From Apostichopus japonicus (taxonomy: Eukaryota > Echinodermata > Holothuroidea > Aspidochirotida > Stichopodidae): DNA of 64,000 nt. The stretch lies in contig NC_092579.1 of NCBI RefSeq assembly GCF_037975245.1, positions 30,279,666-30,343,665 of the forward strand, given 5' to 3'. Both the position numbers and the translations under genes were made by a program. The first letter of the stretch is position 1, and each line of letters begins with the position of its first letter. This document shows, one piece after another, positions 31,153-63,782 of the stretch. The notes under the pieces are model-generated. The model ran no database searches. It was not told where the DNA came from and worked only from the letters and a program-made list of their open reading frames with translations.

Positions 31153-31185
<33 letters not shown>

Positions 31186-34632: not shown

Positions 34633-36589
34633 CAGTGGCGGAGAAACAGGGGGGGGTTGGGGGGTTTTAACCCCCCCACTTTTTGAAGAGGGGGGGTTGG
34701 TCCACACAATCAACCCCCCTAGTTTTTGCCAGTAATGTTCTGTTATAGCCTATGTTATGTGCTCCAAATGGCATAATAAATCAAATTATTAAATTTGAAA
34801 TTGTTAAAGTCATTTCAACCTTTTACCTGGTAGGCTACATCAACAATTAACGACCGAAAACCGAGTTAGAATTGACCCACACATTATTTCTAGCCCCTTT
34901 CCCCCACCTTGCGCATTGGAACTTGTAGCTCATAGCGCTAACTTCACCCCACAACAGACATACACAAAATAACGTTTTGTTGCTGTTGAATAGCTTTGGA
35001 ACTGTATACACTTGCCAACTTCAACGAGGTGAAGGAAGGAAAAGAAAAAGAAGAAAGAGAGAAAAAGAGAAAAGGATGGAGTAGAAAATACGGCAAGAAA
35101 ACGGGAAGAGAAAGAGGAACAGTGACAAAATTATTCGAATTTGTAAAGCAAACAGCAGATATCACATCATATCAGTGAGCATGAAAATGGCGTTCCACGA
35201 TAAAAGGCCTCCAAACCATGGGCGCAGATCCTGGTGAGGACAGCGGGACGCGTCCCCACCAACTTTTTCAGTAGTGGGGACATGATATACTGTACCGTGT
35301 CCCCACCAATTTGTCTTGACCAATAGCTGCATTTCATATGTTCCCATGTATTGAACTTTGGCGCAGTTTGATCCAGCATTGTGCAAATGACATGTAGCAG
35401 TTCTCATTTTATTGTATTTTATCCACAGTTGTTAAATATAGAACGGAAATCGCATTTGCGGCAGTCTATATTTGTTTTCTGGGAGAGGACCCCAGACCCA
35501 TCGTATATACAAAAGTCTACTTGGATTAATTGTCCCCTGATTTTCTTTCTGCAGACGCCCATGTATTTCTCCAAACTAAATTTCTAAGCCATGAGATCTA
35601 AAACTTAAGGAGGTTTAGGAGCATCATTAGGTCTGGGAAGTGTTATTTCCGGCGATCTGGAAGGTATATTTGCCCAAAAAAATCCTACGCTACGCGCGAA
35701 CCCATGGTCGCGCTCCGCTTAGATAGTGTCATAGAACAGACACGCGTCCCCACCATTATCCAAGACTGATCTGCGCCCATGCTCAAAACTGTCGATGTGT
35801 GTAGTGTTCGGTTTCGGAAATATCTGGTATATTTTTATTTCCTTCAACGAAATTTTTTAGTAGCCGTCTGAAATTTCGAAAATTCCCTAACCAACATTCT
35901 TCATCATACTTCATCATACTCGTGCAATTTTGACCCGTCTGTTAGGGTTTGAAGGAGGTTTTTCTTTATCGGTTGTCCATAGATGATATTTTGTGCAACA
36001 TTATGGGTATGTTTTGAAGTCAATTTATTCCCGAGAATTGTGAATTTTCAAATTCTGAGCAGTGGGGCTGACGGATATTGTGGGCCGCGATGAAGAATCA
36101 CCTACAGAAGCAATGATCCACAGGATATGTGATGAAGTCGAACATGATGTGTGACTGGTGACAATCTTCAAAAAGGTTATAGGTGAGAAAAAAAGTATTT
36201 GGAAAAAAACTTGGTTCTCAGGCAAAAGTGTACATATGGTTGGTCAGTTTCAAGCCCGAGAAGTGCCATTTCCGGTGATCTGGGGGTACCAAAACCAGAA
36301 ATTTGCTTGTACGCTGCGCGCCAACCAATGGTGGCGCTCCGCTTAGATAGTAATACGCGCCCCCCGGAAGGGAAAATCCTGCATATGCCCCTGGTTAAAT
36401 GCAGCTTTTCAAGGCCTGGGCAGTGCCATTTACTGCAATCTGGGAGGCGATATTTGGCAAAAAATTCTTGTGCAATTCGCCCCAACTTATGGTGGCGCTC
36501 CACTTAGATAGTGAGCCAGCAGTTATGACTTTTTTATTTCATCAATGGCCTGCAACCCCCCCACTTCTGACAAGAAATCTCCGCCACTG
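34633..36589. mobile_element. hAT-type TIR element (1957 bp) inserted in the LINE relic
   Basis: Termini are CAGTGGCGGAGA and the exact inverted TCTCCGCCACTG. The flanking 8-bp target duplication gtatgcaa is perfect (34625-34632 and 36590-36597). Removing the element rejoins the LINE sequence at that point. The left end has polyG/polyC-rich sequence. No transposase was found: the Lys/Glu-rich frame at 34996-35178 is low-complexity. It contains a second TIR element (35217-35781) and two further copies of the ~100-bp module (36250-36351 and 36408-36512). Confidence 0.9.
35217..35781. mobile_element. Nested 565-bp TIR element
   Basis: Ends are CATGGGCGCAGATC and the exact inverted GATCTGCGCCCATG. 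Flanks ctccaaac (35209-35216) and ctcaaaac (35782-35789) form an 8-bp target duplication with one mismatch, again fitting hAT. Both subterminal regions carry GCGTCCCCACCA-type words. The right half contains one copy of the shared module (35630-35728). A second, truncated relative lies at 37450-38284. Confidence 0.85.
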
Positions 36590-37189
36590 GTATGCAAGTT
36601 CCTGTCTGTTATCATCTTCTACTTGAAAAGGACAAGAAAAGAATCAGAAGTTTCTTGAAATTCTGCTCAAATATATTTCATCTCGACTATGAAAGCCTGG
36701 TTGGTAAAGTAAGCACTGCTGCTAAAAATGAATTCATACGACTAGCTAAGAATATACATAGTTCTAAAGATCACCCACTTCACTCCAAGTAGATCTCTCT
36801 GTGCAATAGATCTAACAAGTACAATCTACATTATCCTACTATCTTGCCAACTTTTAGAATAATGCTTTTCAAGAACTCATTTATCTACAGAGCAGCCATT
36901 TATATTCAAAATGGGTTCTTAGAATCTCTGTTATAATCCTTTTAATCTTTCAAACTTCTAATCCTCCATCTTATTTGTTCATGCTTTCATGATTGTACAT
37001 TTTTACGCCTTTTTTTATGTATCATTATCATGTGTCCTATTTATAAATTTGTATTTTATACTGGAATAAAGGAATTGAAAAATTGAAATTAGAAGCCTAT
37101 TGTTTTTGGTGGAGGTCAAACTTTGGTGGAGGTTATAACTCCGCAAACGAAAGTCAGAATTTATTCATACTTGGTATTAATATGTTGGT

Positions 37190-37450
37190 AGGTTTTTGTT
37201 TCTAATATTTAAGGTTCACAATGGTAGGAGAGGGATATAAGAACAGCAAAAGCAACTGCCTATACTGGGTTTGAACCCTAGACATGGAGTTTTGTCTTGA
37301 AAACTAACCACTGCGCCAATTTAACTGTTGAGAAATAATGCTGGTTTCTAATATTTAAAGGTTCATAATGGAAAAGGGAAACTGCCTTCACTGGGGTTTG
37401 AACCCTAGACATTGAGTTTGACTCGCTCTTCATGTACAGACCACTAACCG
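37190..37450 (-). repeat. Two tandem tRNA-like units (SINE-like)
   Basis: On the minus strand, one unit (about 37262-37325) carries an A-box-like TTGGCGCAGTGGTTAG and a B-box-like GGGTTCAAACCC. A second unit (about 37385-37445) carries GGTTAGTGG and GGGTTCAAACCCC. Both share ACTCCATGTCT- or ACTCAATGTCT-type sequence before the B box, and each is linked to tttctaatatttaa (37199 and 37346; period about 146 bp). The same linker and box pair appear in the plus-strand array at 42.4-43.2 kb. The T-stem does not pair well, so these are tRNA-derived relics rather than functional tRNAs. Confidence 0.65.
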
Positions 37451-38284
37451 ATGGGCGCAGATCTTGGTGGGGACAGCGGGACGCGTCCCCATCAAATTTT
37501 GCATTGGTGTGGACATAGTATACCGTGTCCCCATCAATTTGTCTTGACCAAACGCTGCATTTCAAATTCCCGCCCTGTATTGAACTTTGGCGCAGTTTAA
37601 TCCAGCATTGTGAAAAGGATATGTTATAAAAGACGAGATTTATTACAATTGACACTGTTAGGCGTGAATTCTCCGCTGAAGTATTAACACACTCAATCAT
37701 GTGAAACATAATCTATACACGAGACTGGTAAATTGTGGTCAGCAAAACGGACTGAGTGCGAACAAAACAATCGTTAACAACTCGCACTGTGTGTTGGCAA
37801 TCTGAGCTAGCTTCACGTCCTGCGGTGTTCCCACTTTCAGTTGAATTACCTGAAGTTTTGGTCAATTTCGGGAAATATTTTGAAAATATAAAATTTTGGA
37901 AGGAAAGTATTTGGATGTTTCTAAATATATGTCTCTGATGTTAGAATAAACTGGGCCTTATAACCTGCTACACTATAGTACACTTTTCATCGTACTGTGA
38001 GAAGTACTAGCTTTCTAAGATGAACATACGAGCATGTAGGAGCAGCATTCATATAAGTCGATGTAACTTAAATTATCACTAGTTATCATTATATTTATCT
38101 ACAGTTGTTGAATATAGGACGGAAATCGCATTTGCGGCAGTCTATAATTGTTTTCTGGGAGAGGACCCCAGACCCATCATACATAAAAGTCTACTTGGAA
38201 TATTTGTCCCCTGATTTTATTTCTGCAGACGCCCATGTATTTCCCCAAACTAACTTTCTTAGCCATGATCTAAAACTTATACAA
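37450..38284. mobile_element. Truncated second copy of the 565-bp TIR element
   Basis: The left end GATGGGCGCAGATCTTGGTG matches the nested element at 35217, and similarity runs through the gacagcgggacgcgtcccca block. It breaks off near 37615 and resumes at about 38096 (acagttgttgaatatagga) up to about 38284. The intervening ~480 bp is absent from the other copy, so it is either an insertion here or a deletion there. The right TIR is missing. Confidence 0.7.
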
Positions 38285-38429
38285 CAACCAGTTAAAACAA
38301 CAGTATCGGGCAGTATGTTATCACCCTCCGTTCCATTTTTTGAAGAAAAATTACGATTAAAACATTGAACGCTTCTATCGCTTAGCATACAACTTCCGAG
38401 GAACAACACAAATCCGGAAAACATTTATG

Positions 38430-38585
38430 AATAACAAAGGTTTGATTTGACTGCTTTTAAATCACGTATCACTGGCAAGATGCGTCTAACGCCCTTTTTA
38501 ATCGCTTCTGTTTCTTAGCATACAACTTCCGAGGAACAATAGAAAACAGAAAAACTTTTAGGCAGAACAAAGGTTTCTCAAACCT
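38430..38585. repeat. Dispersed segment shared with the 41.3-42.4 kb composite element
   Basis: The block aacaaaggtttgatttgact, followed by atcacgtatcactggcaaga, and ending aacaatagaaaacagaaaaa, recurs at about 41728-41860. Both copies end in a small palindrome around aacaaaggttt or its complement. Confidence 0.7.
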
Positions 38586-38604
38586 TTGTTCTCAAACCTA
38601 AAAG

Positions 38605-40835
38605 ATAAGCAGAAAGTTTGGTTTATTGTAGATTTTATGTGCGCGGAATTAGCAGGATTGATACGGGGAAAAGTAATTAATTTGCTCTATGTGGTTCTGG
38701 TGAGGTTATAATCTTACGTAAGGCTGGGAGGAGACGAATTGGTCGATAATTTTGGTGCGGTCTTTACTCAGTTTCGGTATTAAAATCTTTTTGGCGGATT
38801 TCCATGCGAAATAACCGAGTCTAAGGAGTTCGTTAAATAGGGGGAAAATATGAGAGTTAATGAATATCGGAGGGGAGTTTTTAGGCATTTGGTCATTTAT
38901 GTTGTCAGGACCAGTGGAGGATGCATTTTTTAGTGGCACTATACCAATTGTATATATCTATTTTATTGAGCAGAGGGATGTTTTTTGTTGAGACATCCTA
39001 ATGGGTTGGTGTTAAAGCTGGTTGCATTACTGATAATTGTTCGGTCTATTTCGTGTTTACCGCTGATATCGTATGGGGGCCATCGAAGATATTGAATATA
39101 CTTTTAAAGTACGATTCAATTAGCTTTATTTGGTCTTGAGTTTTTGTGATGAGGTTACCTACGTTATCTCTAAGGCCTTGGTCTGTTTTAACTGTGTTTG
39201 GGTTGTAAAGGGGTTAATGATTAATGATTTTTTTTTTAATTTTCCAAAAGTGTTTCGGGTTTTATCATTAATGATTGAATCGCAGTTGTTTTGGACGCGG
39301 TTTTTGTTCATCCGCCAATATTTGTCTGTTTATTGCTATTTAAGTTGGTTAATTTGGGTTTTTAGAGTTAGGTCTCGGGAGATGATATAGGTTCTACGTA
39401 GGCGACGTCTGAGTTTCATAAGTGTAAGGATCTTCTTATTTAGTTTTCGTTTTCTGTTTTGTTTTTAAGGAACAGTGTCTTTCGAAAGTATTGAAGATAT
39501 GATGGGCAACGCTGTCACAGTAATTGTTGATGTAATTTAGCCAGGCGCGGCGGAACGGGACAATTATTGGGGGGGGGGGGGCTAAGTGTGTTAAGATTAT
39601 CTAAGCGGAGCGCCACCATCGGTTGGCGCGGAGCGTACAAGAAAATTGTGGGTTTTTCAAACCCCCAGATGGCCGGAAACGGCACTTGCCGAGTGTTTTA
39701 TGCTGCGAATACCTAGCCCTGAGATATGGGTCTCAAGTCTGTAATTTCTCAGATTGCACGTAAAAATCTGTAAAAACATTGTAATTTGTATATTCGAGGG
39801 TGTTTTAAGAGAGTAGCTATTACTCGTAGTGTACTCGCAAAGACGTTTTTGAGTGTAGTAAATTACTACTTGCAATTAAATGCAATAATTAAATAAACGT
39901 CATAAGAAAAAATAGAAAGCATTTTCTTAATGTCAACAAATGGATAATTCCAAAACCATGTGCAGTTGCCAACAAATTTCTATGAACCAAGCACTGTCAC
40001 GAATGCATGTACCCTATACAGTACAGGTGAAATGCTAATATTGTGTTTTTGTTCGTTTAATAATTAATTGCGCACATAGAGCCATGTTCCACGCCTTGCG
40101 TGTACTTGTAGTGTAAACGCAAATTTTGATGAGTGTATAGCGTTTAGCTTATTACACTCTTATTTAAAACACTAATATTCGATGAGGCATGATACAGACA
40201 ATCAATTATCATATCGTTTGAATGCTCTGGCTGCAATGCTCCGCACCTACCCCCCCCCCCCCCATGTCCCTGAAGGATATATCCATGGGAAATGTGCTAC
40301 CATTGGAAGGATATATCTTTCAGGGGATGTTGGAGAACTGGCTGAAATGAGGCAAATCATTGGCCTAAGACGCAGTTGTGTTGCGCTTACCCCCCCCCCC
40401 CCCCCGGTTCCGCCGCCACTGAATTTAGCTCGTTGTTTTGGTTGTTGTATTTTGGGAGTCTGTTTTATTGTAATTATACGTCACTTCGTTATTTGGTATG
40501 CGGTTGAGGTTTATGTCTAGCTCAAAAACGAGTGGGAAAATTGTCACTGATTTAGTCATCTTCTAGGATTTGTATCGAATGTGTTTAAGTTGCGAGGTGA
40601 TTTGAGGTTACATGGGTAGTCAAGTAGTTCTGTAATATTGTTTATTGGGTTTATCCTAGGATTGGTACTTTGGCTAATTATCGTTAAGTTGTATTTATCA
40701 CATATTTCTAAGAGATTTGCCTTTTTCAGAAAAAAATAATGTGGGCAATTACTAGGAGTTTTGTATTTTTATTAGAACATATATATGCTATGCTGGATAT
40801 GGGCTCATTTGGGGGACTATAATCATACCACGAAA
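38605..40835 (-). mobile_element. Jockey-like LINE fragment, interrupted by a hAT element
   Basis: The minus strand corresponds to the 49.77-51.18 kb part of the longer LINE copy. It includes the pre-RT segment STGPDNINDQMPKNSPPIF and LLRLGYFAWKSAKKILIPKL near 38706-38939, and decayed endonuclease C-terminal sequence at 40430-40835. Frames are broken by many indels. An 880-bp element at 39542-40421 sits inside it. Both ends are truncated. Confidence 0.85.
39542..40421. mobile_element. hAT-type TIR element (880 bp) inside the LINE fragment
   Basis: Left end CAGGCGCGGCGGAAC and right end GTTCCGCCGCCACTG are inverted copies with few mismatches. The flanking 8-bp duplication aatttagc is perfect (39534-39541 and 40422-40429). 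The paralogous LINE copy at 50727-50734 carries a single aatttagc, an in-window empty site. The element contains one module copy in reverse orientation (39598-39695), two C homopolymers and no transposase. Confidence 0.92.
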
Positions 40836-40921
40836 GTGTCCATTAGGTATAGGTTGCATTGAGGGTGTGTTATTCTTTCGTCAAATGGCGTACCATGGGG
40901 GGAGGGGGTGGTCTATCTGGC

Positions 40922-41286
40922 GGGTGGCGGAGCGTCCATACAGTCAGGGGGCGGATACTCCCCCCCCCCCTGACGGACTCAAATGGACTGCTGGCGCCCT
41001 TTTTTAGCTTTTTACCACTTTATATGCTATTATTGACGTTTTTATTGCGCTCTCATCTACCTATTGACATTTGTCACATTTTTGGCGATGACACCTATTT
41101 ATCCTTTATCTGCAAATTAGCAAGGCCGGGAAAGTGTCATTTCCGCCGATCTAAGGAGCATCTTTATTCAAAAATTTCGGTTACGCTCCGCGCCAAACCC
41201 GTGGTGGCGCTCCGCTTAGATAGTTTCGAAAGCGCCCCTACAGACCATTCTCGCCCCCTCGACCAATACCCTTAGCTCCGCCACTG
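40922..41286. mobile_element. Non-autonomous TIR element, 365 bp, sister of 59198-59568
   Basis: The left end GGGTGGCGGAGCGTCC and right end GCTCCGCCACTG are inverted matches. The interior closely matches the element at 59.2 kb: agtcagggggcgga, a C homopolymer, gacggactcaaatggactgc, and a module copy at 41115-41224. No 8-bp target duplication was found: tatctggc on the left and caaaggac on the right do not match, so one end may be displaced or rearranged. Confidence 0.8.
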
Positions 41287-42436
41287 CAAAGGACCCAATA
41301 GAAATACGTGTTCTTTATAAGTGCACAATTTTGAAAACCCCCTCTTTTCAGCCCCCCCTCTTGTCCTCTCTGAAACACTCATCGATATTAAAATTAGACG
41401 TGGAATAGAAGACACCCTTGTCTTTGTTATACACTAATTTCGTGTAATTATCTGACCGGGAAAGGCTTTTTGTTTATATGATTTCTATTTTTTCATAAAT
41501 CACAAATCATTTCCCCCCCCCCCCTGCACGCCCCCACACAGCACCCAATTCCAAAATAAACTTCAGATTCGTAATCAGCGTGTCGCGAACTACCAGAAAA
41601 GATACACATTTATCGCCTTTGCGACAAAAAGTTTTTTCACCTTTAAAAACCGTAAGCAGTTTTTTCCAAAATTTATGCCAAAATTTGACCCATTTATTCA
41701 TAAATGTCAAGATAAAACTCAAGATGACAAACAAAGGTTTGATTTGACTGCTTTGAAATCACGTATCACTGGCAAGATGCGTCGAGCTCCCTTTTATTTC
41801 GCTCAGTTTGCAACTTTTCAGAGGAACAATAGAAAACGGAAAAACTTTTAGGGGCAACAAAAGATTTTAATCCTTTGTTCGTCGTAAAAGTTTTTCGGTC
41901 TTACTTTTTCAAGTTTGAGGTGCAAAAACTTGTTGTCGCAAAATCGATAAATGTGTATCTTTTCTGGTAGTTCGCGACACGCTGATTACGAATCTGAAGT
42001 TTATTTTGGAATTGGGTATCAAAAAGAAGTACTTTTTAAACTTTTCAGACAAAAAACCTATTTTTGTCGCAAATAAAAATTGCCAAAAATTGACCCCAAA
42101 TCGATTTCGCCCATATGACGTGACAGGGGGTAACCGATGCTCAGGAGCCCAAATCTGCAACTACCAGGTCCATATCTGCTTCCGTTCGGGAGATACGTGG
42201 TCCCAATGGACCCGATAGAAATACGTGTTCTTTATAAGTGCACAATTTGGAAAACCCCCCTCTTTTCAGGCCCCTCTCTTGTCCTCTCTGAAGCACCCAT
42301 CGAAATTAAAATTAGACGTGGAGTAGAAGACACCCTTGTCTTTGTTATACACTTATTTCGTGTAATTATCTGACCGAGTGACCGGAAAAGGCTTTTTGTT
42401 TATATGATTTCTATTTTTTTCATAAGTCATAAATCT
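41287..42436. repeat. Composite element: long direct repeats around an inverted repeat
   Basis: Two direct repeats of about 225-230 bp (41287-41510 and 42204-42436) begin caaaggaccc or caatggaccc and end ttctattttttcataaatca or similar. Between them, 41543-41635 and 41925-42017 are inverted copies (core gattcgtaatcagcgtgtcg and its complement). A middle block at 41728-41860 is shared with 38430-38585. No reverse transcriptase, integrase or transposase frame was found. It could be a tandemly rearranged foldback element rather than an LTR element. Confidence 0.75.
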
Positions 42437-43050
42437 GGACTTTGAAGTTTAAATATTAAAAACGAGCATTAATTCTCAACAGTTCTAGTGGCGCAGTTGG
42501 TAGTGCTCTGGACTGACAAACTCCGTGTCTCAGGTTCGATTCCCAGACAGAGCATTTTGATTTTTTTCTCTTTTCCTTCTTCCATTCTGGACTTTGAAGT
42601 TTAAATATTAGAAACGAGCATTAATTCTCAACAGTTCTAGTGGCGCAGTTGGTAGTGCTCTGGACTGACAAACTCCATGTCTCAGGTTCGATTCCCAGAC
42701 AGAGCATTTTGATTTTTTTCTCTTTTCCTTCTTCCATTCTGGACTTTGAAGTTTAAATATTAGAAACGAGCATTAATTCTCAACAGTTCTAGTGGCGCAG
42801 TTGGTAGTGCTCTGGACTGACAAACTCCATGTCTCAGGTTCGATTCCCAGAGAGAGCATTTTGATTTTCTTCTCTTTTCCTTCTTCCATTCTGGACTTTG
42901 AAGTTTAAATATTAGAAACGAGCATTAATTCTCAACAGTTCTAGTGGCGCAGTTGGTAGTGCTCTGGACTGGAGAGACACAGACAAACTCCATGTCTCCG
43001 GTTCGATTCCCAGACAGAGCATCATGTCTGCGGTTAATGTCCAGACAGAG
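42436..43050 (+). repeat. Tandem array of four tRNA-like 152-bp units
   Basis: A-box-like TGGCGCAGTTGGTAG occurs at 42489, 42641, 42793 and 42945, exactly 152 bp apart. Each is followed by the perfect B-box consensus GGTTCGATTCC about 40-45 bases later. Units share a linker with tttaaatattagaaacgagc and a T-rich stretch. The putative anticodon loop CTGACAA would read GAC (Val), but the anticodon and T stems pair poorly. The fourth unit has an insertion (gagagacacaga). It is best described as a tandem tRNA-derived SINE or tRNA-pseudogene array with intact internal Pol III promoter boxes. Confidence 0.75.
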
Positions 43051-43072
43051 CCTTTTACTTTTCTGTTCTTTG

Positions 43073-43200
43073 GAGGGAGTGGAAGTATAAATATAAGAAA
43101 CGAAGTTTTTCCAGAGGGAACCGAAATGGTGTAATTGGTTATTCCATCGTTCAGTAAGCGATTGGTTTGGATTGCACCGGTTCAAGTCCCAGGTGAGTAT
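43073..43200 (+). repeat. Fifth, divergent tRNA-like unit
   Basis: The linker (agtataaatataagaaacgaag) is a diverged version of the preceding array's linker. The tRNA-like head is different: ATGGTGTAATTGGTTAT followed by the B box GGTTCAAGTCC. Same linker with a different head suggests either deep divergence or head exchange. Confidence 0.55.
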
Positions 43201-43264
43201 TTGCAAAAGGAGTTCTGACAAGTGGATAAGGTGAATCCCGAAGGCGGGCGGTCCCCCTCCTCCT

Positions 43265-43460
43265 GGCAGGTGGACAAGGTGAGTACCGAGGGTGAGAGGT
43301 GAGAGGATGAGAGGGGGTGAGGGTGCGGACAAGGTGAGGTCGCCGCCCCCTCCCCCTGACAAGGTAAAGGCGCGGACAAGTGGAGTTCGCTGCCACCCCT
43401 CCCCCTGACAAGGTTCAACGCGGACAAGGTGAGTTCGCCGCCACCCCTCCCCCCTGACTA
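43265..43460. repeat. GC-rich 47-bp minisatellite
   Basis: Three clear copies start gcggacaa at 43325, 43372 and 43420 (period 47-48 bp), each containing gagttcgccgccacccctcc or a close variant. Degenerate copies precede them. It gives Pro-rich minus-strand frames that are not genes. Confidence 0.85.
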
Positions 43461-43572
43461 GCTAATCGGGGGTGAGGGAGTAGTGGAGAAAATGTTTTAC
43501 AAAAAAAGACTAAGTCCAAACAGCAGGATCTTTAAATATTTGCAAAGCTTTAGAAACCAGAGGCCCACCTAA

Positions 43573-43640
43573 TGGTCTAGTGGTAAAGACTTTTGCTTTT
43601 GCATCTCAAGGTCCCTGGCTCAAACTCAATCTCTGCTTTT
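43573..43640 (+). repeat. Possible tRNA-like fragment
   Basis: TAATGGTCTAGTGGTAAAGAC resembles a tRNA D-arm/A box, and ggctcaaactc 45 bases later is a degenerate B box. It is preceded by aagctttagaaaccagag, weakly similar to the linker of the arrays upstream. Confidence 0.3.
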
Positions 43641-43659
43641 CCTTTTACAATACTCAAGT

Positions 43660-45480
43660 AAAAGGAAGAAAAAAAGGAAAAAAAAGAATGATACTTTGAA
43701 ATAACTTCTTTTTTTTAATGACAAATCAGTTCATGGACAGGATATACCTTCATCCCTCCCACCACAGTTAATACCCTTCAACTACCTGTCCAGAAACAGG
43801 TTATCCCTCATCAAATTATTATGCAAATACTAATCAAAACATGCAATATATATTTCATAAACATTCTTAGTGATACCTGCATTTACTATTGAGATGGTTG
43901 GGTGACAACAGACAGTTATTTTCTATAATGTTTCTATTATTTATAATATCAGCCTGGAGGGCAGTTATTATTATGGGATAAGCCCTATGGCCTTTTTACT
44001 TCACACCAGGTGGCTATCAAATTCACACCAGTACATTCTTTTTGGACATTTTTTTTTTTAAACATTTGGAAGACCATTTTTAAATGAAGGGATAAAGAAT
44101 GGATTTCTCCTTGATAAAAATAAAAACCCCATCTTACTTTAGCCAGACAGGGCTTGAATCCATAGGTTTGCTTGACAACAAGTTCCCAATAAAAAGGAGG
44201 TGACCTTCCATGGCTGCTTGAGTTTACAATACCATGGTTCCCCTGCTACCATCAATATCATTTTTGCCCTCCAGTTTGAAAAAGGAAACAATACTACCAT
44301 AGCACAAACAACTTAAATGTGGAAAGGTTGCTCCCTTTCATTGCCGTCTTAATCGCCCCCCCCCCACCCCGCTCGGACTACCACACCCCAAATTATATAC
44401 ACGAAGAGTGCATTATTGAAAGTTTCTTTAAATATAACCTTATCAGTAAACCTGTGCTACTGCAAACTGAATATTCAATTCAAAGATTCTCCCTCTTCAC
44501 TTTCAACACTTTCATTTCTCCTTCTTGATCCTTCGCCTCACCACCCATCCCCCCCCCACCCCACCCCTGGTCCTTCCAACTAATATCCAAAACTCCTGCC
44601 AATATCAAATTCAGTCACATTAACATCCCCATAAAGTGTCAGTCAGTCAAGCACCACAATGTTTGTAGACCAAGAATCAACAACCGAAACCCATTTTTAA
44701 AACTTTAAAGCCCCATCAAATAAAGATGCTGTTTTTTCTTCTTTTTCTCTAAAAGAGATCAACACACAAACACCAAATCCAAAATATATGAAATTCCACT
44801 TCCCATTTTGAATGTTCTTCAAATTTTTTGGCCCAAGCCACATTAAAAAAGTGAGTTTTATTCTTTTTGGCCTTGCCCCATCTTTGTGTTTGCATTGCAA
44901 CAAGGTGTAGTTTTCTCTACTAAAAAAAACAAATAAAATCAAATAAAACTTAAATAAAAGATGATGACAGCACATGCAGGAGAAGAGTGAGAGCCCTCTC
45001 AAATACTACCGGCTTATGTATACAAAAGACCTCACGGACCAGATTAAGGGTGAAGGAGTTACACCGATTTGAAGTACCATATAACCTGGACTAACCCATT
45101 TGACCTGACGTGTGTCATTCCTGTGGTCTTATGATGGATGTTTACGAAATGTGATATATCAATCTGTGGGTGCCTCACCTGAACGCAACCAGAACCACGA
45201 CATGCAATACATGCAGATATAATCATGTAACTGTATAACGCCAACACATACATACTGTAACAAGCAAGACCAAAGAAGAGAGGAAAAAAAAGGACAATAA
45301 CATCGTTGGTAAACGATATCACTCCTATTCGCCTGCTGACATTCCCACTGGGGATCGCATTTGATCCTGGAGAGTCGCTACCTTTGGATCCTTTATCCGA
45401 CATCATGGCAAATCCCGTTACTTTTCACCCCCGCTCCACCATCCACGCAGGAACCCACCCAGACCCCGATTTATTCTGTT
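43660..45480. other. Intergenic stretch, no gene recognised
   Basis: AT-rich with C homopolymers near 44357 and 44550. The minus frame at 45059-45406 (opening MMSDKGSKGSDSPGS with two hydrophobic stretches) has no recognisable domain and no clear splice partner; I do not call it a gene. Confidence 0.4.
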
Positions 45481-45486
45481 CCAGTT

Positions 45487-46886: not shown

Positions 46887-46944
46887 CTTTCAATTAAATG
46901 AAACCAAAATCTAATGATGTCTTCTATATTAATTTGTTACATCG

Positions 46945-48895: not shown

Positions 48896-49159
48896 GGAAA
48901 ATGGTTTCCAGGCAACCACTTTTCTGAAACTCGTACAGGAAAGTGACAACTGCAATGAAATTACAAGAGAATCAGCATTTTAACATGCAATGTCTTTCTG
49001 ATAACAAAATAGAAATATTTTAATATCACAAAGTTTATACTAACAAAGAACTGGTGTGTTTTAAAAGTTATGATGCTGAAGGCACGGTATTGCCTATGCC
49101 ATCATGCTGGTGTGGGTGTTCGCACATGTGACAGCTACCTTGTAAACACAATATTTCAA

Positions 49160-52100
49160 CAAACAAAATTAATCAATGTCATACTTGGTAGGTAGATGCC
49201 CCATGATGTGTAGATGGGCCCTGTTGACAGCAGTAATTGAGGTGTTGACAAGATTAATTTTGGAATTATGGTTACAGTATTTTGAGTTTATTATGGAGAA
49301 ATTGACTAGGTTAGATTTTGAGGGATTTATGTTTATTCTCCACATCAAGCACCAGTTTTCAAGATGTGTAATTGCTTTTTTAATCTTTAATTCCGTCATA
49401 TGAATAGTTTTACTGGTGCTCCAAATGGCTATGTTGTCAGTGTACTGACTATAGCTGCATTTAGATAGAGGGGGGATGCTCAAATCATTAACAAATAGGG
49501 TGCTGAGGAGGAGGCTGAGAACAGCGCCCTGTGGAGTTCCTGCACGAAGTGGAATGGGTTTTGATTGTTGGTTTTTGTAGCATATTTTTGCATTGCGCTC
49601 ACTAAGGAAAGAGGAAAGAAGTCTGGTGTAATTGGAGGGGAGATTAAAGTTAAGCAGTTCAATTCTTATGCCGTTGTGCCAAGTTTTGTCGAAAGCTTTT
49701 TCGGCATCAAGGAAGAGGGCAGTGGTATAATGGTTTTTTATGAAGCCGAAGCTAATTTCTTCGGAAAGACAAAAAGTTTGGTTTATTGTGGATTTGTGTG
49801 TTCAGAACCTGATTGAGACGGGGAAATGTGATTATTTTGTTCCAGGTGAGTTCTGGTGTGGTTACCTATTATTCATTCAAATATCTTGCCTAAGGCTGGG
49901 AGGAGACTGACTGGACGATAGTTTTGGATTTTGGTGCGGTCTTTACTTGGCTTTTGTATTAGAATCATTTTGGCGTATTTCCACAGGGTTGGGATATAGC
50001 CCAGTCTAAGTAGTTTGTTAAATAGAGGGATAATATGAGAGTTGCATGAATATTGGTGGGGATTTTTTGAGCATTAGGTAATTTATATTGTCAGGGGAGT
50101 AGGTATTTTTGCATTTTTTGTGGCACAATACCAATCGTTTATGTCTATTTTTTCTAGTAGGGGGATGTTTTCGTTGAGATATCCTAAGGGGTTGGGGATA
50201 CAGCTGGTTGCATTTCTGATAATTGTTTGGTCTATTTCTTGTTTGAAATCTGTTATCGTATGGGTGGCCATCGAAGATATTGAATATATTTTTATATGTA
50301 TGATTCAATTAGCTTTATTTGGTCTTGAGTATTTGTAATCAGGTTACCTGCGTCATCTCTAAGGCCTTGGTCTGAATTACCTGTGTTTGGGGTTGTAATG
50401 CAGTGTATGATATATTTTATATTTTTTCAAAAGTGTTTCAGGTTTTTGTCATTAATGATTGAATCGCATTTGTTTTGGGCTCGGTCCTGGTCGTCTGCCG
50501 ATATTTGTCTTTTTAGTTGTTTTTTAGGTTGGTTAATTTAGGTTTTTAGAGTTGGATCTCGGGAGTCATGTAGGTTCTACGTAGGCGACGTCTGAGTTTA
50601 ATTAGTGTAAGAATATTCCTATTTAGTTTTTTGATTTCTGTTTTGCTTTGTTTTTAAGGGAAATGTTTTTTGAACATTTTTTTTTAAGATAATGTTGGGC
50701 AATGCTGTCACAGTATTTGTTGATGTAATTTAGCTTGTTGCTTTGGTTGTTGTGTTATTTGTTACGAGTTTCTCTTTAAATGCTGTCCAGTCTGTTTTAT
50801 TGTAATTATACGTTAATTTGTTATTTTGGATGCGACTGAGGGTTAATGTCTAACTCAAAAAGGAGTGGAAAATGGTCACTGATTAGGTCATCTTCTAGGA
50901 TTTGAATCGAATGAGTTTTAGTTGCAAGGTGGTTTGAGGTTATGGCGTAGTCAAGTAGTTCAGTATTATTGTTTATTGGGTTTTCCTTGTTTTGGTATTT
51001 TGGTTTATTATTGTTAAGTTGTGTTTATCACATATTTCTAAGAGAGATATGCCTTTACAGACATTTTGGTGCTACCAAATATGATGTAGTCGACATTTAG
51101 ATCTCCTAGTAGTATTGTATTTTTATTATATCGGTGGATATGGTCTCATTTAGGGGACTATAATAGCTAATAATGTGGAGAGGTTTATAGTCTCTTTCGA
51201 GTACAATTTCAATTGTTTGATTGTTTGTTTGGGTTGGGTTTGAGAGGAGAGTGGCTTTGTTTTTTACAGCAATAAGCTCCTCCTCTAGAGCGAGAAATAT
51301 GGTATCTGAAAGTTTGATAACCAGGGATGCTATGGTGGGAATTTGTATTTAGTTTAACGAAATGATATCCTGGGAGTGGTTGGTGAATATACTAAGAAGG
51401 AGGCTTAATTTTGAAAGGGTACTGTTGATGTTTAGGTGGAGAAACTTGATCGAAGGAGGGAGTGTGCTTGTCATGTAGGTGATTGAGGAGGGCTAAATAT
51501 TGAAGGTTTGTGGAGACGTTCCATAATTACAGTTTCTGGGATATTTAAGTTTAGGTGTTTTAGTACTAACACGGTGGCGTAACTGGCAAAATTGTTGGAT
51601 TTAATATTAATGTTGGCTTTATGGAAGGTGTACTGTACTAATTCAATTACAAAGGTTGCGATATTAAGTTTTTCTTCAGTGGCGATTTTATTTATTATTT
51701 CAGTTTTTGGGGCAGATTTGGTTACATTCACATAGGCTCTCTGTTCTTGTTGTTTGTTAAAAGCTTCAGTTTTGGCTTTTTTAAATTTTGGGCAGCCTTT
51801 TTAAAGGGCGGCATGAGTCCCTGAGCAATTGGCACATTTTGTGTTTTCTTTCTGTTCGGGACAGTCTTTAACTCTGTGGTTTTCGCCACATCTGAGGCAT
51901 CTGGTTTGATTTTTGCAAGTATGGTGGGTGTGTCCAAAAAGTTGACATTTGAAGCAATGAGTGATTTGGTGGGGGGGGGTTCGTGGTATTCTTCTGTTTT
52001 GTGTGTAGAGTATCCTAAGTAGAGACCTTGTTTGATTAGGGATTGTTGAGGTTCTTGTTCTTCAAACGTTATTTTTACATTCCAAGTTGGATTGTTTGGG

Positions 52101-52560
52101 GCGGAACTAATGAGTCTTTTAGTTGTATTGGGGTGTATTCTCGGTCTTTGAGTTCTTGTTCAAAATCTTTGATTTGTATTTCCGGGTTTATGCCACAGGC
52201 AACTACAGAGAAGTTTCTTTGTCTTACCTTTTTGGGGATTCTTGTTTTGGGGTTGCCTAGTTTAGTCTTTTGAGTCCATGGTTTCAGGAGGATATTTGCA
52301 GATTTAGGGTCATGGGGTGATTAGGATGTCGTTACTACGAAGAAGGTTTATATTTGAGATCATGGCATTTGGTTTGTCTTCATTGATTTGTTTAGCAAGG
52401 GTTATTGGGTCTTTTGATAGTTCTGGTAAGACTCCTGATACTATGATTTTGAGCAGACTTTTTGGTGGTTGGTTTGGAGTTAGGAGTTTGGGTTTAGGTT
52501 TTCGATTTGGGGGGCGGTTATAGGTGGGTTTGGGGTTGCCATATTGGCAAAACAGCCCCT
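49160..52560 (-). mobile_element. Jockey-like LINE: gag-like ORF1, endonuclease and RT relics
   Basis: Read on the minus strand from about 52537, ORF1 starts MATPNPPITAPQIE. It contains WNVKITFEEQEPQQSLIKQG and then three zinc knuckles of the CX2C...H...C type (CFKCQLFGHTHHTC, CLRCGENHRVKDC, CANCSGTHA) at about 51800-51965. ORF2 follows with endonuclease remnants (YQTFRYHISRSRGG near 51300, LLLGDLNVDYIIFG near 51090, ISDHFPLLFELD near 50860). RT motifs follow: LDAEKAFDKTWHNGI near 49690, RAGTPQGAVLS near 49530 and YTDNIAIW near 49440, where the catalytic aspartate pair is altered. There are many frameshifts and stops, so it is dead. Gene order and zinc knuckles fit the Jockey clade. The 3' end is missing here and may lie at 46945-47957. 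Confidence 0.9.
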
Positions 52561-52795
52561 TCCTACGGGTTTTAAATGGCTTCTATACAATGAAATTGAT
52601 CATAGACTTCACTTACCAGAGAAAAAAAATGAGTTTCCAGCCTAAGACGGGGGACCAAAAGAATAGGAACTCCTTTTGAAGAGACACACCATGAATCGAA
52701 ATTGGCTTTGGTAGCGTTGTGCTGGTAAAAAAAGGACCATACGTTTGTAAATGGCAGGTAAGTAATAGAGTGAAGGATGATGGGGTGGCGCTATG

Positions 52796-52834
52796 TCAAG
52801 GAGCTAACTGTTGACCAACATAGTCCACAGAACC
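52796..52834 (-). pseudogene. Truncated duplicate of an ABCC NBD1 exon
   Basis: After the acceptor CTTTCCTTAG the frame reads GSVDYVGQQLAP and stops. This corresponds to the GSVAYVPQQ segment of the first nucleotide-binding domain of ABCC transporters. The 50 bases upstream (aaggagaggaatgcaaaag, attagccagtttt) match those upstream of the longer copy at 54366-54532 (aaggagaggaatacataac, attagtcagtttt), so the two share an ancestor. Confidence 0.6.
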
Positions 52835-53089
52835 CTAAGGAAAGGAGAGGAATGCAAAAGAAATTAGCCAGTTTTCTTAGTAAGTCTTGTACATTTAGCA
52901 CAAAACATTAAACACTAATTAGCAACTAATTCCAACAAAGTTTAGGCTGTGATTGAAACTGGTGGAAACATAATTAAATATATATTACATTTTTATGAAC
53001 CTTTCTTTCTTATGACTAACCTTGACTGTATATTGCAGCTTTCCAGCTTAGCTTGTGTTTTTCCATCAAATCAGCTCATCTTTGAGTTT

Positions 53090-54306
53090 TCTGATCTTGA
53101 CAACAATCAACTGTCTTTTTAATTTACCACAACCCAGACCACACTAATTGGCAACTCTTTCCAACAATCTAAGGCAACGATCATCAATTTAAGACAACCA
53201 AATTACTAATTTCAAAATGATTCCAACAAACTAAGGCACCGGGTCTCATTAATTTAGCACAAAACAGACCACATTAGTTAGCAACTCATATCAATAAACT
53301 AAGGCAAAACTTATTTAATAGAAACACACCACACTAATTACCAACTCATTCCAACAAATTATCACAGCACTCCTCTTCAATTAAGCAAAAACAGACCACA
53401 CTAATTAGCTACTCATTCCACCAAACTAAGGCACAATGTCTCTTTAATTTACCACGAAATAGACCACACCAAATACTGACTGGTTCCAACAGGTTAAGGC
53501 ACTGTGTCTCGTCCATTTAGCACAAAAACAGATCACACCAAATACCGACTGGTTCCAACAGTCTAAGGCACCGTGTTTCATACATTTAGCACAAAAACAG
53601 ATCACACCAAATACCGACTGGTTCCAACAGTCTAAGGCACCGTGTTTCATACATTTAGCACAAAAACAGATCACACCAAATACCGACTGGTTCCAACAGT
53701 CTAAGGCACCGTGTTTCATACATTTAGCACAAAAACAGATCACACCAAATACCAACTGGTTCCAACAGGTTAAGGCACTGTGTCTCGTACACTTAGCAAA
53801 AAAACAGACCACACCAAATACCAACTGGTTCCAACAGTCTAAGGCACAGTGTCTCGTACATTTAGCACAAAAACAGACCACACCAAATACCGACTGGTTT
53901 CAACAGACTTAGGCACCATATCTCGTACATTTAGCACAACAACAGACCACACCAAATACTGACTGGTTCCAACAGGCTAAGGCACCGTGTTCCGTACATT
54001 TAGCACAAAAACAGACCACACCAAATACCGACTGGTTCCAACAGGCTAAGGCACCGTGCCTCGTACATTTAGCACAAAAACAGACCACACCAAATATCGA
54101 CTGGTTCCAACAGGCTAAGCACTGTGTCTTGTACATTTAGCAAAAAAACAGACCACATTTTAAACCGACTGGTTCCAACAGTCTAAGGCACTGTGTCTCG
54201 TACCTTTAGCATAAAAACAGACCACAACAAATACCTACTGGTTCCAACAGGCTAAGGCACCGTGTCTCGTACATTTAGCACTGATCTTGACAACAATCAA
54301 CTGTTG
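53090..54306. repeat. 69-bp minisatellite, about 12 clear copies, bounded by a direct repeat
   Basis: Units such as ataccgactggttccaacag, then ctaaggcac, tcgtacatttagcac and acagaccacaccaaa recur every 69 bp between about 53450 and 54290, with degenerate units from 53150. The frame-preserving length makes repetitive 145-aa and 75-aa minus-strand frames that are artefacts. The array is bounded by ctgatcttgacaacaatcaa followed by ctgt, at about 53093 and 54285. It sits between the two ABCC exon copies. Confidence 0.92.
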
Positions 54307-54365
54307 AGAGGACAAGACTGATGTTCATGATACTGGCTCACACTGATGTTTCCCTTGAATCTTAC

Positions 54366-54532
54366 TTTCTCTCCAATTTCTGTTAAATCTCCTCCAGATA
54401 ACACTTCCAGATCTCTCTGTAGAGGACAGGCTTGAAGGATCTTCTCGTATTTGGTAGAGTTGAGAATAGAATGTTTCCTCTCACGGTATCATTTTGGATC
54501 CAAGCTTCTTGAGCAATATAGGCCACAGATCT
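54366..54532 (-). pseudogene. Decayed ABCC transporter NBD1 exon
   Basis: A 167-bp exon lies between the acceptor CCTTTCATCAG and the donor GAGAAA|GTAAGA. It reads RSVAYIAQEAWIQNDTVRGN, ILFS, then after a one-base shift TKYEKILQACPLQRDLEVLS and GGDLTEIGEK. This is the segment between the Walker A region and the LSGGQ signature of NBD1 in ABCC proteins, including the Q-loop glutamine (AQEAW), and the exon limits match the family's. The frameshift prevents a functional product unless it is an assembly error. It is on the same strand as, and downstream of, the ABCC 3' end at 61568, so it belongs to a different, probably tandem, copy. No flanking exons (Walker A, signature) were recognised. Confidence 0.8.
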
Positions 54533-54589
54533 CTGATGAAAGGAGAGGAATACATAACAAATTAGTCAGTTTTTTTCAAAGTAACAGCA

Positions 54590-55185
54590 AAAGTAAAAAA
54601 GTCAAACCTTGTGAACAACCAAACTGTCAGCCACGAGACAAAAGATGTGTACTCTTCTAGACAGGCATTTTGTGAAAGAAATGAAAGTTATTGGCCACTG
54701 GTTTGAACATCTCCCAGAAAAGACCTCACAATACCAACTCATTCCATCAAACTAAGGCACAATGTCTTATTAATTTACCACAACCCAGACCACACAACTT
54801 AGCAACTCTTTCAAACAAACTAAGGCACAATCATCAATCTAAGACATCCAAATTACTAATTACAAAATGATTCCAACAAACTATGGCACCAGGTTTTATT
54901 AATTTAGCACAACACAGACATCACTGAATACCAACTGATGCCACCAAACTAACTTATCATAGCTCTTCAATTTAGCACAAACATACCACACTTACTAACT
55001 ACTCATTCCACCAAACTAGGGCACAATGTCTCTTTAATTTACAAAACAGACTACGTTAATTAATGAGAAACTCATACCAACTCAGCAAAAGTAACAAATT
55101 CAAGTTCACCTTGTGAACCACCATAATTAAGGCAAATGATCTATACTCTTCTGGACAGACATTCAGTGAAAGAAATGGAATTATA
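54590..55185. repeat. Degenerate second minisatellite array and duplicated flank
   Basis: About 54720-55060 holds degenerate copies of the 69-bp unit (ccaactcattccatcaaact, aaggcacaatgtct). They are bounded by a duplicated segment: 54600-54690 (ttgtgaacaacc, tactcttctagacaggcatt) and 55105-55180 (ttgtgaaccacc, tactcttctggacagacatt). Confidence 0.75.
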
Positions 55186-55189
55186 TGTT

Positions 55190-56930
55190 CAGGTCAAGAC
55201 TGCTGGTGACCGATTTGCACTGTATGCTCTGTAAAATTGGCTATAAAATGTCTCTGTTCCTACCCTGAAGATCATTTCAAGGAGAAGTTAACATTTCATA
55301 TCTTTCAGTCACCTTAAGATCTTTCAACCACTTCTTTTAAACCTGATCCAGCTTCATTAGTGACATCCAAGACTCACAAGTTTCCTTCCATTTTCTTCTT
55401 CTATATTTATCTTTCACCTGAGACAGTATTGTAAAAGATAAGAAGATGTCATATATTGGAAAGCAGATACTGTAGACATTCCAACTAGACTCATTTCTAC
55501 ACACTACCTCCCTTCCTCCCCTCCCTCCCCCTGACTACCTAAACAACCCTGACTGCTGCCTCATTGATATAACTATGTATAAACAAATGTTTATTATTGT
55601 GGTTTCATGGCAGAAATAAACGAAACGAATACGAGCTTAATTATTTGTGTTACTATAGTAAATTGTGCATACCCAAATGGAAGCATTACAGAATCTCCAA
55701 CATCTCAGACCTCCAGCAGGATGTTACAATCACAGTTCATGGAGTCTTCTTGTGAATCAGTGTGGCCCATGCAATGCTGTAAAGACAAATATGAAAGTTA
55801 TATGTATCCTTTGGTGTGAAATAACATTTTAGTAATTGTGTTACATAAGATCATCTTCCAGTTTGCGTATGCATACACCTTTCCTAAGAATGTTTACAAA
55901 CATGAATAAACTGTTCCTCGTTTTGTTACTAAGTGTCTGTTTATTTTTAATACTTGCAATATGACTCAGTAATGAACCTTACTAGATATTGCTATCAAAC
56001 CTTTGGAGTACTTTATAAAATGCCAAAACTTCCTTTGATGTACTGTACATTGTTCAATGGAATGGTCAAGCCAATAGTAAGGAATGAATGCTATACAATT
56101 TTGAGAACATTTCATCAGCTAAACAATATTGAGAGCATTTTCAAACTTGGCAAGCACATTCATCAAGAACTGGAAAATAGAAAAATTTCTGAAATAAGCA
56201 TAATTCTTGAAACGAGAAACTTAACAAGTGAAATAAGGACCGACATTTAAGCTACAACATGTACACTTAAGCAAAGATGAAAACTGGCTTTTCAGCCTTA
56301 CAAAAAGTACCAAAACATATTGTTATATTCACAGTAAACCCTCATGTGCTTCCATGACTTCTAACACCTGTGTAATAATATTCTATATCAACAAGGACAG
56401 AGATACTGTTTAGTGTACTTGTTTCTCAATACTTTTAACATGTTTTAACGTGTTTTAATGTGTTTACCATGAGCTTTGTTCCTCACAACTTTCAAATTAT
56501 AAACCAAGTTAAAGACAATTACTCAACAATGAGAGGTCGACTAAGCAAAGTTTGAACTCGGTTTTATAATAATCAAAGTTTCAGTGAAGCAGTTTTGCCT
56601 ACCATAAAATGATGCCTTAGGCATCAAAAGATCTGATAAAGATCTTTAACTTAAGCCAAGAGTTGGACCAATACTGTTAAGCCTAGTTTCAAGTCAAAAT
56701 TATGCTAGTTGATCAAATTAATACATGTACTGTATATCAATCTAGTTGCCTACGCTAGGTAACATCAGCTTGCATGGAGAGTTTTCTCCATATTTGAACC
56801 ATCATCAACATCACTTAGACCGCAGAGCTCTGCCTACTTGCTTGAGATTTTCATATTAAAAAGTACCGTTGCTTGTATAAGTAGCCCAGGAGAGTTCGTC
56901 CTCATCTCTATCTAGCCTCCGCTTTGGTAG
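55190..56930. other. Intergenic stretch, no gene recognised
   Basis: AT-rich. The 98-aa plus-strand frame at 55954-56250 has no recognisable domain and no supporting splice or start context. Confidence 0.45.
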
Positions 56931-56984
56931 GCTAGCCTAGGTTTTCCAACTTTCATTTGGTGGTAGGCCTAGCCTGGGGCCATT

Positions 56985-57107
56985 TGTTTCCTCCCCTAAC
57001 AATGTTATATTCCTCCCACTAATAAAATTCAATAGCTTACCCCCCTACGTCATAGGGGAGGTCAAGTACGTTTTCATGTGAAACTAACATTTTCAGGGGA
57101 GGAAACT
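56985..57107. repeat. Short inverted-repeat element
   Basis: Arms gtttcctcccct (56985-56996) and aggggaggaaac (57095-57106) are inverted copies about 100 bp apart. A shorter relative at 57645-57710 has the same arms, and both right arms are followed by taagg/taaag plus ttttt. Confidence 0.6.
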
Positions 57108-57109
57108 TA

Positions 57110-59190
57110 AGGTTTTTCATGGGAGGCATATTGGCTAGGCTATGTGGAAAGAATAGATGTTGGCTCTGATGGCATATTTTCTTTTTCGAGTAATTAGAGT
57201 AAGCTAAAGAAAATTGTGATTGTATGAAGGAAAATAGGAAATGTGACCAAGTACCTTACCTGTGTAACTGTTTAGTGATTGGAAGATAAAAATGTTGTGA
57301 ATTGGCCAGATTGTTTGCATAGGATTGTATGCGCGAACATGGGGTAATTTAGTAATTTACATGCGTGGAATTCAAAGTGGTAATGGGTTGTTTGCGTGTA
57401 TGACATTCATTGTGGGAATGAAATATTATAGTAAATTTAGCCTATAAGTATACCCTCCTTGGTTCCTTCCAAAAAAACATTACATTTTAGCATTCACCAG
57501 TTTCTTCAATTACTACAAGTGTCTCTTCCAACATAGGCTAGCCACCTTGAAATATGATCCATTCTTTCACCACTCCCCTTAATGGCTTAATCACTGTACA
57601 GTTGCTTCACTACCTAAATTAATTTTTTTCACAGCCTTGCAGTTTTCTTTCCTCCCCTGAAAAAAATTGGTTTCCTCCCCTAAAATTTCAGGGAGGAAAC
57701 TAAAGTTTTTATTCTTGGAAGTTGGAGAGCAAACTGACGCTTTTCCTGTCCGGACCTAACTAGGCCTAGTAACAGGAGCCGACCTTGCCTATCTGACATG
57801 ATAGAAATAGAAAAAATAGCAAAGAGAGCTTTCATCCTTAGCTAATTTTTCTGGCTGCGAGTTAGTTTCTTGAGGATGTGTTACCGTTATTGTTAAGTGC
57901 TAGATGGCATAGGTTATGGATTGGTAGGCTACTCTGGTACAGTGGTAGGAAATTAAAGTCAATTAGGCTAGGCCTCATTTAGGCCTAGCCTAGGCCTAGT
58001 CTTACTCAGTAACTGTACTAGCCTTAACCAGAAAGTAATTATGCCCAACCAGCTAGGTCTAGTATTTTTAGTATTTTGTCGGCAGATATAAAGGGACTTA
58101 TTTTTCTTACATAAATAGTCTAGTGAATATTATATTAGGCCTAGGCCCATACTGTAGGATTCCAACTTACTATAGACGCCAGTACCTACGTGAGCTGGCC
58201 TACCGTTGGGCCTAAGCGAACCTATTATATGATAGGCTAGCCTAACGTATCGCGCTCGCTGACTCAAACAATGTGAAGTACTAACTTGCTCGACAAAACT
58301 AAGAACAACCTTCGAGCTGGTGAATATATCTGCCATTCACATTCTTTGGCAGTTACTCCCCATACAGAATAGGCTACAAATTACAATTACGTATGAATTG
58401 TTAGCCTACGGCTGCCAGGAAGCGAACTGCACTGCTCGTGCTCATGCAACCTATCGTGAGCTTTTACATACAGATCATAATTCGCGCTCGTTAGCTTAGA
58501 ACCTACTACACACAAATTATGTAAATGTCACTGAACGGCATCCGTAGGGACATCGTTTTTTTGCTCCACATTTGAGTTTCCATCATATCTTTAATCTGCT
58601 TTTCATACATTTCTTTTAATGTGATTGTTATATTGACCACATCTCATGACTTTTGAGTCGTTTTCTTGTATCCAGTGAGATATAAAAGGTTGAATTTTCC
58701 GTACGTTTTCACGGTAGGCCCTCTGTTCAAGGTCAATGCATGACTATAACATTAGGTCCACTAAGTGCGGATATTGGTCTCCATTTGCCACTATTGCAGT
58801 AAACCCGACCGAGCAGCGTATCTACGGTGTCTCTTAAAAGACATCATTACTAACAAAGTCGAAAAGTTTTTTTTAATCTCTTTGGTGACATTTTAAAAGT
58901 ATTTCTGATTACATTACGTACAGATTCGCCCTCCCTCCTTTTCTATGAGAAAAGTTCATATGGGGAAACATGACAATGACCGTGATAAAATCAATTTCAC
59001 GATTACTAGCGATCAAATCGCAAAATTTGTTTCGAAAAATGGTTGAAAAGTGACATGAATTCCACCTCATTCATTCATTTTGTTTGAGCATGTTGAACGC
59101 TTGCGATAAATTGTCATTACGAATCATTGCAGACGCTCAACCAAAACCGTTAAAACATACCGCACTCACCCCTTCTCTTCCTACACTGCG
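57110..59190. other. Intergenic stretch rich in TAGGCCTA words
   Basis: Between 57750 and 58230 the palindromic words CCTAGGC, TAGGCCTA and AGGCCTAG are strikingly frequent. The minus frame starting MADIFTSSKVVLSFVEQ at 58336 could be a first exon, but no donor or partner exon could be established. Otherwise nothing recognised. Confidence 0.4.
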
Positions 59191-59197
59191 TTCCCAG

Positions 59198-59568
59198 CAG
59201 TGGCGGAGCGTCCATACAGTCAGGGGGCGGATGCCCCCCCCCCCCCGACGGACTCAAATGGACTGCTGGCGCCCTTTTCAGCTATTTACCTCTTTTTACT
59301 TATTCGGGAGTATTGACATTCTTATTACACTCTCATCTACCTATTGACATTTGTCACATTTTGTTGGCGATGACACCTATTTATTCTTCGTTTTCCTGCA
59401 AATTATCAAGGCCCGGAAAGGGTAATTTCCGGCGATCTAGGGAGTAACTTTAGTTCCAAAAATTCTGTACCCTCCACGCCAACCTGTGGTGGTGCTCCGC
59501 TTAAAGTCGAAAGCGCCCATACAGACCATTCTCGCCCACTCTGATCAATACCCCTAACTCCGCCATTG
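59198..59568. mobile_element. Non-autonomous hAT-type element, 371 bp
   Basis: Ends CAGTGGCGGAGCGTCC and AACTCCGCCATTG are inverted matches. Flanks gttcccag (59190-59197) and gctcccaa (59569-59576) form an imperfect 8-bp duplication. The interior is homologous to the element at 40922-41286 along its full length, including a module copy at 59403-59505. Non-coding. Confidence 0.85.

Positions 59569-61567: not shown

Positions 61568-63782
<2,215 letters not shown>

Follow-up and report, generated by a model that had tools for sequence, protein, structure and literature searches.

A stretch of the Apostichopus japonicus genome (NC_092579.1, positions 30,279,666 to 30,343,665; 64,000 nucleotides, hereafter the window, numbered from its first base) holds six copies of a ~100-bp module in five transposable elements of four families, E1, B, C and A. 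The first-pass annotation of this DNA had described a block of ~100 bp present six times. All six copies are confirmed, within a few bases of the positions first assigned to them, and their alignment spans ~100 columns with a mean column identity of 79%. The same annotation had placed the copies in elements with differing termini and interiors; four families are indeed present, but the copies at 36250 and 36408 share E1, those at 41115 and 59403 both lie in family A, and the copy at 35630 lies in B, which is itself nested in E1.

Host elements and copies of the module

The whole window was scanned for CA...TG pairs 150–3000 bp apart, with 12-base inverted ends matching at at least 10/12 positions and 8-bp duplications matching at at least 7/8. 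Three pairs were obtained, E1 (34633–36589, plus strand), B (35217–35781, plus strand) and C (39542–40421, minus strand), and every one of these elements bears the module. Among ten control sequences of the window's length, generated with a first-order Markov model, none contained more than one such pair, and the total was three. When the inverted ends were relaxed to 9/12, the window gave 7 pairs against 0–3 per control, the four extra pairs being without a hAT-like look.

E1 is 1957 bp long (1384 bp without the nested B), with ends CAGTGGCGGAGA matching at 12/12 and the duplication GTATGCAA (8/8) at 34625–34632 and 36590–36597. B (565 bp) has the ends CATGGGCGCAGATC (12/12), with inverted ends that are perfect over 14 bases, and the duplication CTCCAAAC/CTCAAAAC (7/8). 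C (880 bp), with ends CAGGCGCGGCGG/CAGTGGCGGCGG (10/12) and the duplication AATTTAGC (8/8), is inserted in a retroelement relic that matches 49770–50734 and 50789–51164 on the two sides of C; this other relic copy (49770–51164) is adjoined by a reverse transcriptase match (RVT_1, E = 1.3e-22, 49172–49801, minus strand). A1 (40922–41286, plus strand, 365 bp) and A2 (59198–59568, plus strand, 371 bp) form one family, being 83.6% alike over 373 columns, with termini of the same kind as those of E1, B and C. The left terminus of A1 is mutated and no duplication was found at this element, while the flanks of A2, GTTCCCAG/GCTCCCAA, agree at 6/8.

As far as seen, the hosts are hAT-type non-autonomous elements, in agreement with their initial description. 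E1, B and C have short inverted CA...TG ends of the CAGNGG type, except that B reads CATGGG, in which G at position 3 is not kept, and that the left end of C reads CAGGCG. The 8-bp duplication is present in E1, B and C, weak for A2 and absent for A1, and by eye the left copies of E1, B and A2, but not that of C, fit the Hermes target preference nTnnnnAn (3/4). None of the 17 stop-free frames of at least 70 amino acids overlapping the elements contains a Pfam family above cut-off, and the two sub-threshold matches among them are to unrelated families (E = 0.028 and 0.18). No hAT transposase was seen within the elements, nor was any autonomous element seen. Families A, B and C (365–880 bp) are short and non-coding, with inverted ends and a target duplication that is clear for B and C and weak or absent for A, as in miniature inverted-repeat transposable elements (MITEs), whereas E1 is longer; the families with more than one copy in the window are A (2 copies) and B (2, one of them truncated).

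The second copy of family B (37449–38279) is 84% and 92% alike to B over two parts and carries ~470 extra bases at 37625–38093. Its match to B ends ~17–22 bp ahead of the start of B's module, and no B-type right terminus follows the end of the match (best 8/14). Both copies hold TGCAGACGCCCATG, at 35550–35563 and 38224–38237, which matches B's right terminus at 8/14 and is perhaps an older end inside the element.

The module copies lie on the plus strand at 35625–35727 in B, 36250–36351 and 36408–36512 in E1 (hereafter E1a and E1b), 41119–41224 in A1 and 59405–59507 in A2, and on the minus strand at 39596–39696 in C; their G+C content is 48–54%, against 38% for the window. Untrained pairwise blastn within the window linked 11 of the 15 module pairs with E-values no higher than 1e-4 (e.g. 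35629–35730 with 41123–41227, E = 3.9e-12, and 36261–36349 with 39687–39598, E = 2.3e-21), the pairs not listed being B–C, E1b–A1, E1b–A2 and C–A2. A profile built from the six modules scores these same copies at E = 1e-28 to 8.1e-27, values that are circular for them, and a seventh copy was not found, as the next-best profile match in the 64 kb has E = 4.3.

Position, polarity and internal architecture

In all six copies the GCTCCGCTTAGATAG side of the module faces a terminus at a distance of 42–77 bp, one of the termini being putative. The distance is 54 bp in B (terminus at 35781), 77 bp for E1b (E1 terminus at 36589), 54 bp in C (terminus at 39542), 62 bp in A1 and 61 bp in A2, and E1a lies 42 bp before the putative hAT-like terminus. 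No copy is found near the opposite end of any element. For random placement of one module per family, the joint probability over the four families of lying within 77 bp of the faced terminus is ~3e-4, where the threshold is the largest observed distance, i.e. chosen after the fact. The module always lies close to the terminus that it faces and is never near the opposite one. It therefore belongs to one end and is not a free interior part, and its initial description as internal and non-terminal is not supported as worded.

This constancy of place also bears on a further suggestion of the first-pass annotation, that a small independent element has inserted into larger hAT elements. The module is compact and common to otherwise different hosts, which would suit such an element; however, it occurs in the same place and orientation every time, and no flanking duplication is found above chance at the six copies, where the longest shared flank word is below 4 bases in three copies, 4 in two and 5 in one. 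No module outside these elements and no empty site was seen in the window, and we regard independent insertion as highly improbable.

The putative terminus behind E1a (36387–36393, plus strand, GCCCCTG; inward reading CAGGGGCATATG) was sought after the fact. It matches the hAT-like end at 3180 at 9/12 and the others compared at 7/12. A full nested element ending near 36393 was considered and rejected, as neither a matching 5' end nor a duplication was found as a partner for this terminus. Two more hAT-like termini, at 3180 and 12711 (CAGTGGCGTAGG and CAGTGGCGTGCA), have no detectable partner end and are without the module.

Within the module, two conserved blocks, around AAGTG-CATTTCCGGCGATCT and TACGCTCCGCGCCAACC-NATGGTGGCGCTCCGCTTAGATAGT, flank a variable spacer of 27 columns; likeness between copies is 68–89% in the blocks and 37–73% in the spacer. 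Measured between ATCT of block 1 and CTCCRCTTA of block 2, the two blocks are offset by 58 bp in B, 59 bp in E1a, 60 bp in E1b, A2 and C, and 61 bp in A1. A spacer of near-free sequence held at near-fixed length between kept blocks suggests protein geometry. Both blocks contain imperfect dyads and CG-rich words, including CCGGCG. Block 2 holds a quasi-palindrome, GCGCCA-ACC...GG-TGGCGC, flanked by two CGCTCCGC-like repeats, and in B this quasi-palindrome carries one matched double change. The heptamer GCTCCGC, counted on either strand, occurs 11 times in the window and always inside these elements, which occupy 5.6% of it: 7 occurrences are in five of the six modules, 3 are in the terminal repeats of family A and 1 is elsewhere in C. 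E1b is the only module without an exact copy, having GCTCCAC instead.

Conservation of the module and its possible function

When E1 (with B removed), B, C, A1 and A2 were compared by blast with a limit of E = 1, the module emerged as the only long well-aligning stretch between the four families. Beyond it, likeness between E1 and C is limited to the first 33 bp (85%, partly a G run), the B–C match is weakly extended (186 columns, 65.6%), by ~50 bp beyond the upstream edge of the module and ~30 bp beyond its downstream edge, and the other inter-family matches are short (13–25 bp). The families are otherwise not alignable, yet a single hAT pattern underlies their 12-base termini: those of E1, A (A2 left, A1 right) and the right end of C match one another at 10–12/12, and the B terminus matches them at 7–9/12. 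Thus the interiors do differ as first described, the termini are related, and the alternative that all hosts are full-length homologues is not what the comparison found within the window.

The common pattern of the termini, the 33 bp of E1 and C and the weak B–C alignment speak for plain common descent, in which all the elements would have arisen from one old family by internal deletion, the module being simply the piece that has not yet decayed. However, conservation patterned into blocks, near-fixed spacing and a variable spacer does not readily arise from neutral decay, and the module is not better kept than the rest of the element within family A, so that we consider this explanation unlikely.

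The comparison of A1 with A2 depends on how gaps are treated. With gap runs counted as single events, there are 0.19–0.20 events per base in the module and 0.12–0.13 outside it, a difference with p = 0.09–0.11 under three scoring schemes. A plain MAFFT alignment, for which A2 minus 4 bases was used, gives 77% in the module against 90% outside (p = 0.003) and 59% in the spacer (p = 1e-4), but these values are alignment-dependent. We therefore dropped the proposal that, within family A, conservation of the module is significantly below that of the remaining sequence. Selection on the module at the level of the host is likewise unsupported, since the module has diverged between A1 and A2 no less than the sequence around it. 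As the module is not specially protected after insertion, the most likely cause of its conservation between families is selection for mobility and not a host function.

The two modules of E1 have different affinities. E1a and E1b lie 56 bp apart in one element and are only 68% alike, whereas E1a and C are 80% alike, with 73% in the spacer. The module tree places E1a with C (support 91/86) and A1 with A2 (91/88), although no branch reaches the tool's full-support mark. The double module may represent an acquired second end, the remnant of a nested element or an ancient duplication, and is the only direct hint of end exchange. Exchange would imply that ends are interchangeable among the hAT elements of this genome, a ~150-bp cassette of module plus terminus being traded between families by recombination or post-excision repair, and that the history of the module differs from that of its hosts. 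If this is true, one transposase would serve diverse non-autonomous elements by way of a common docking site, even as their terminal repeats diverged. Such exchange would account for two kinds of module in E1, of which E1a groups with C and then has its own putative hAT-like end, for the restriction of E1–C likeness outside the module to the first 33 bp, and for the lower identity of the module in the plain MAFFT alignment of A1 and A2. On the other hand, this last difference falls to p of ~0.1 with gap runs as events, the grouping lacks a fully supported branch, and E1a may itself be a nested-element stump or an old tandem duplication. We regard the exchange of ends as a less likely alternative.

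Good alignment over a long stretch is confined to the module when the families are compared, and the hosts are hAT-type non-autonomous elements. The module is therefore best read as a polar subterminal region, present at one end only, through which a transposase would bind hAT-type elements and the non-autonomous elements derived from them, and we assign this reading a probability of about 0.62. The first-pass annotation had listed transposase binding among the possible functions of the module, and the alignments favour it. What the sequence itself displays is the position, the polarity, the near-fixed block spacing, the dyads, the common heptamer and the hAT-type ends and duplications; binding by a transposase, the BED identity of the domain and the order of capture are what we infer. 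Several DNA-binding domains (BED-type) within a single transposase assembly would contact both blocks, and this binding would mark the module-bearing end for first capture, the opposite end being located through its terminal repeat alone. As interiors are replaced and terminal repeats drift, the binding region would stay recognizable, because only copies that retain it would be mobilized.

Several observations weigh against a transposase-binding region. No transposase is visible, and the sample consists of only four families in one window. The distance between module and terminus varies from 42 to 77 bp, whereas cleavage in Hermes is impaired when site and terminus are shifted by 1 bp relative to each other (PMC10368747). 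Some hAT-encoded CGGBP proteins favour AT-rich motifs (PMC8097297). As to the dyads, the three proposed helices have 93.3% of pair cells standard, against 39–48% when the structure is slid along the alignment, but this excess is partly built in, the structure having been derived from the same sequences. Covariation is not significant, with 81/500 shuffles reaching the score and one double change in all, and 93/500 shuffles reach the percentage paired. A control slid by −2 has 3 double changes against the 1 of the proposed structure. Finally, single-strand folds of five of the six copies are no better than those of shuffles (z = −1.06 to 0.01).

The folding results bear equally on whether the module is a transcription or RNA element (a promoter, terminator or structured RNA). 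The dyads, and the fold of the C module, which beats its shuffles (z = −2.08), could be taken in its favour; however, the other five copies fold like shuffles, covariation in the dyads is not significant, and no Rfam family reaches its gathering score in the window. In region 34633–41300, a limit of E = 1 yields only one weak Rfam match, which lies outside the modules, and no tRNA was found in the window. An RNA or transcriptional role therefore appears very doubtful, and we read the dyads as probable protein sites in duplex DNA rather than as RNA structure. Viral contigs were searched with patterns of the module, either exact or allowing a few open letters, and prokaryote contigs with an exact 23-mer; both gave 0 matches, as expected for animal-like DNA.

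Relation to known systems and other repeats of the window

This module was not found among open-licence papers, within the matches listed, and module words gave no match in the full text of open-licence papers. One precedent is Hermes. Two BED domains of its transposase bind cooperatively to a quasi-palindrome found only at the left end, and BED contacts are made at this end alone, through the quasi-palindrome plus a third repeat; left-end binding is proposed as the first capture step, while binding at the right end does not involve BED domains (PMC10368747). The proposed resemblance lies in a one-sided high-affinity region next to a hAT terminus, a quasi-palindromic pair of sites and another end recognized through its terminal repeat. 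The Hermes sites, however, consist of AAGT followed by AT-rich DNA, within ~35 bp of the tip and in rigid phasing (PMC10368747), whereas the module is ~100 bp long, about half G+C, located 42–77 bp from the tip without rigid phasing, and common to several families. Like the palindromic sites of Hermes, which are at one end only, the module is one-sided, although its dyads are without significant covariation.

CGGBP-type hAT-derived proteins usually favour CGG or CGC, and the motifs of four hAT-encoded proteins of this type match subterminal regions of their own elements (PMC8097297). None of these proteins was seen in the window, and what connects them with the module is the kind of motif alone.

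Among the literature found, the published example that comes nearest to a common inside with different ends is CMITE of Acropora corals. The study describes several MITE families that have different terminal repeats and a conserved 75-bp internal region more alike than the termini, reports tandem arrays and gives the origin as unknown (PMC2872659). CMITE elements have TTAA duplications and piggyBac-type ends and are ~100 bp long, and the shared region fills the element rather than one end (PMC2872659); the elements described here do not share these characters, having 8-bp duplications, hAT-type ends and an end-specific module. Mar and Vege of Drosophila willistoni are non-coding hAT MITEs of 610 and 884 bp, with 11- and 12-bp ends and 8-bp duplications, the duplication of Mar being of the Buster type (nnnTAnnn), and no module common to families is reported in the text examined (PMC3517528).

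MITE families are commonly grouped by their terminal repeats. If a subterminal docking site persists longer than the terminal and internal sequence, it would indicate more reliably which transposase mobilizes an element, and it would connect MITE families that are now classified separately. It would also test how general the one-sided recognition detailed for Hermes is in hAT elements.

Other repeats were also noted in the window. A1 abuts the left edge of a structure at 41287–42435, in which two direct repeats of ~225 bp (90% alike) surround ~700 bp with a 100-bp inverted repeat (96%), an arrangement that is long terminal repeat-like or composite. Next to it, at 42434–43022, a 152-bp unit is repeated head-to-tail (3.5 copies by Tandem Repeats Finder); tRNA-like promoter boxes are visible by eye, as in a tandem array resembling short interspersed nuclear elements, ARAGORN finds no tRNA in it, and a diverged inverted relative of the unit lies at 37198–37381. 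Satellites with units of 69, 105, 119 and 61 bp occupy 53386–54281, 1705–2245, 5824–6491 and 63210–63459, respectively. A further tandem array at 30350–32262 consists of 14/18-bp units of the CAGATAGA type, extends over 1.9 kb and is open in three frames of one strand.

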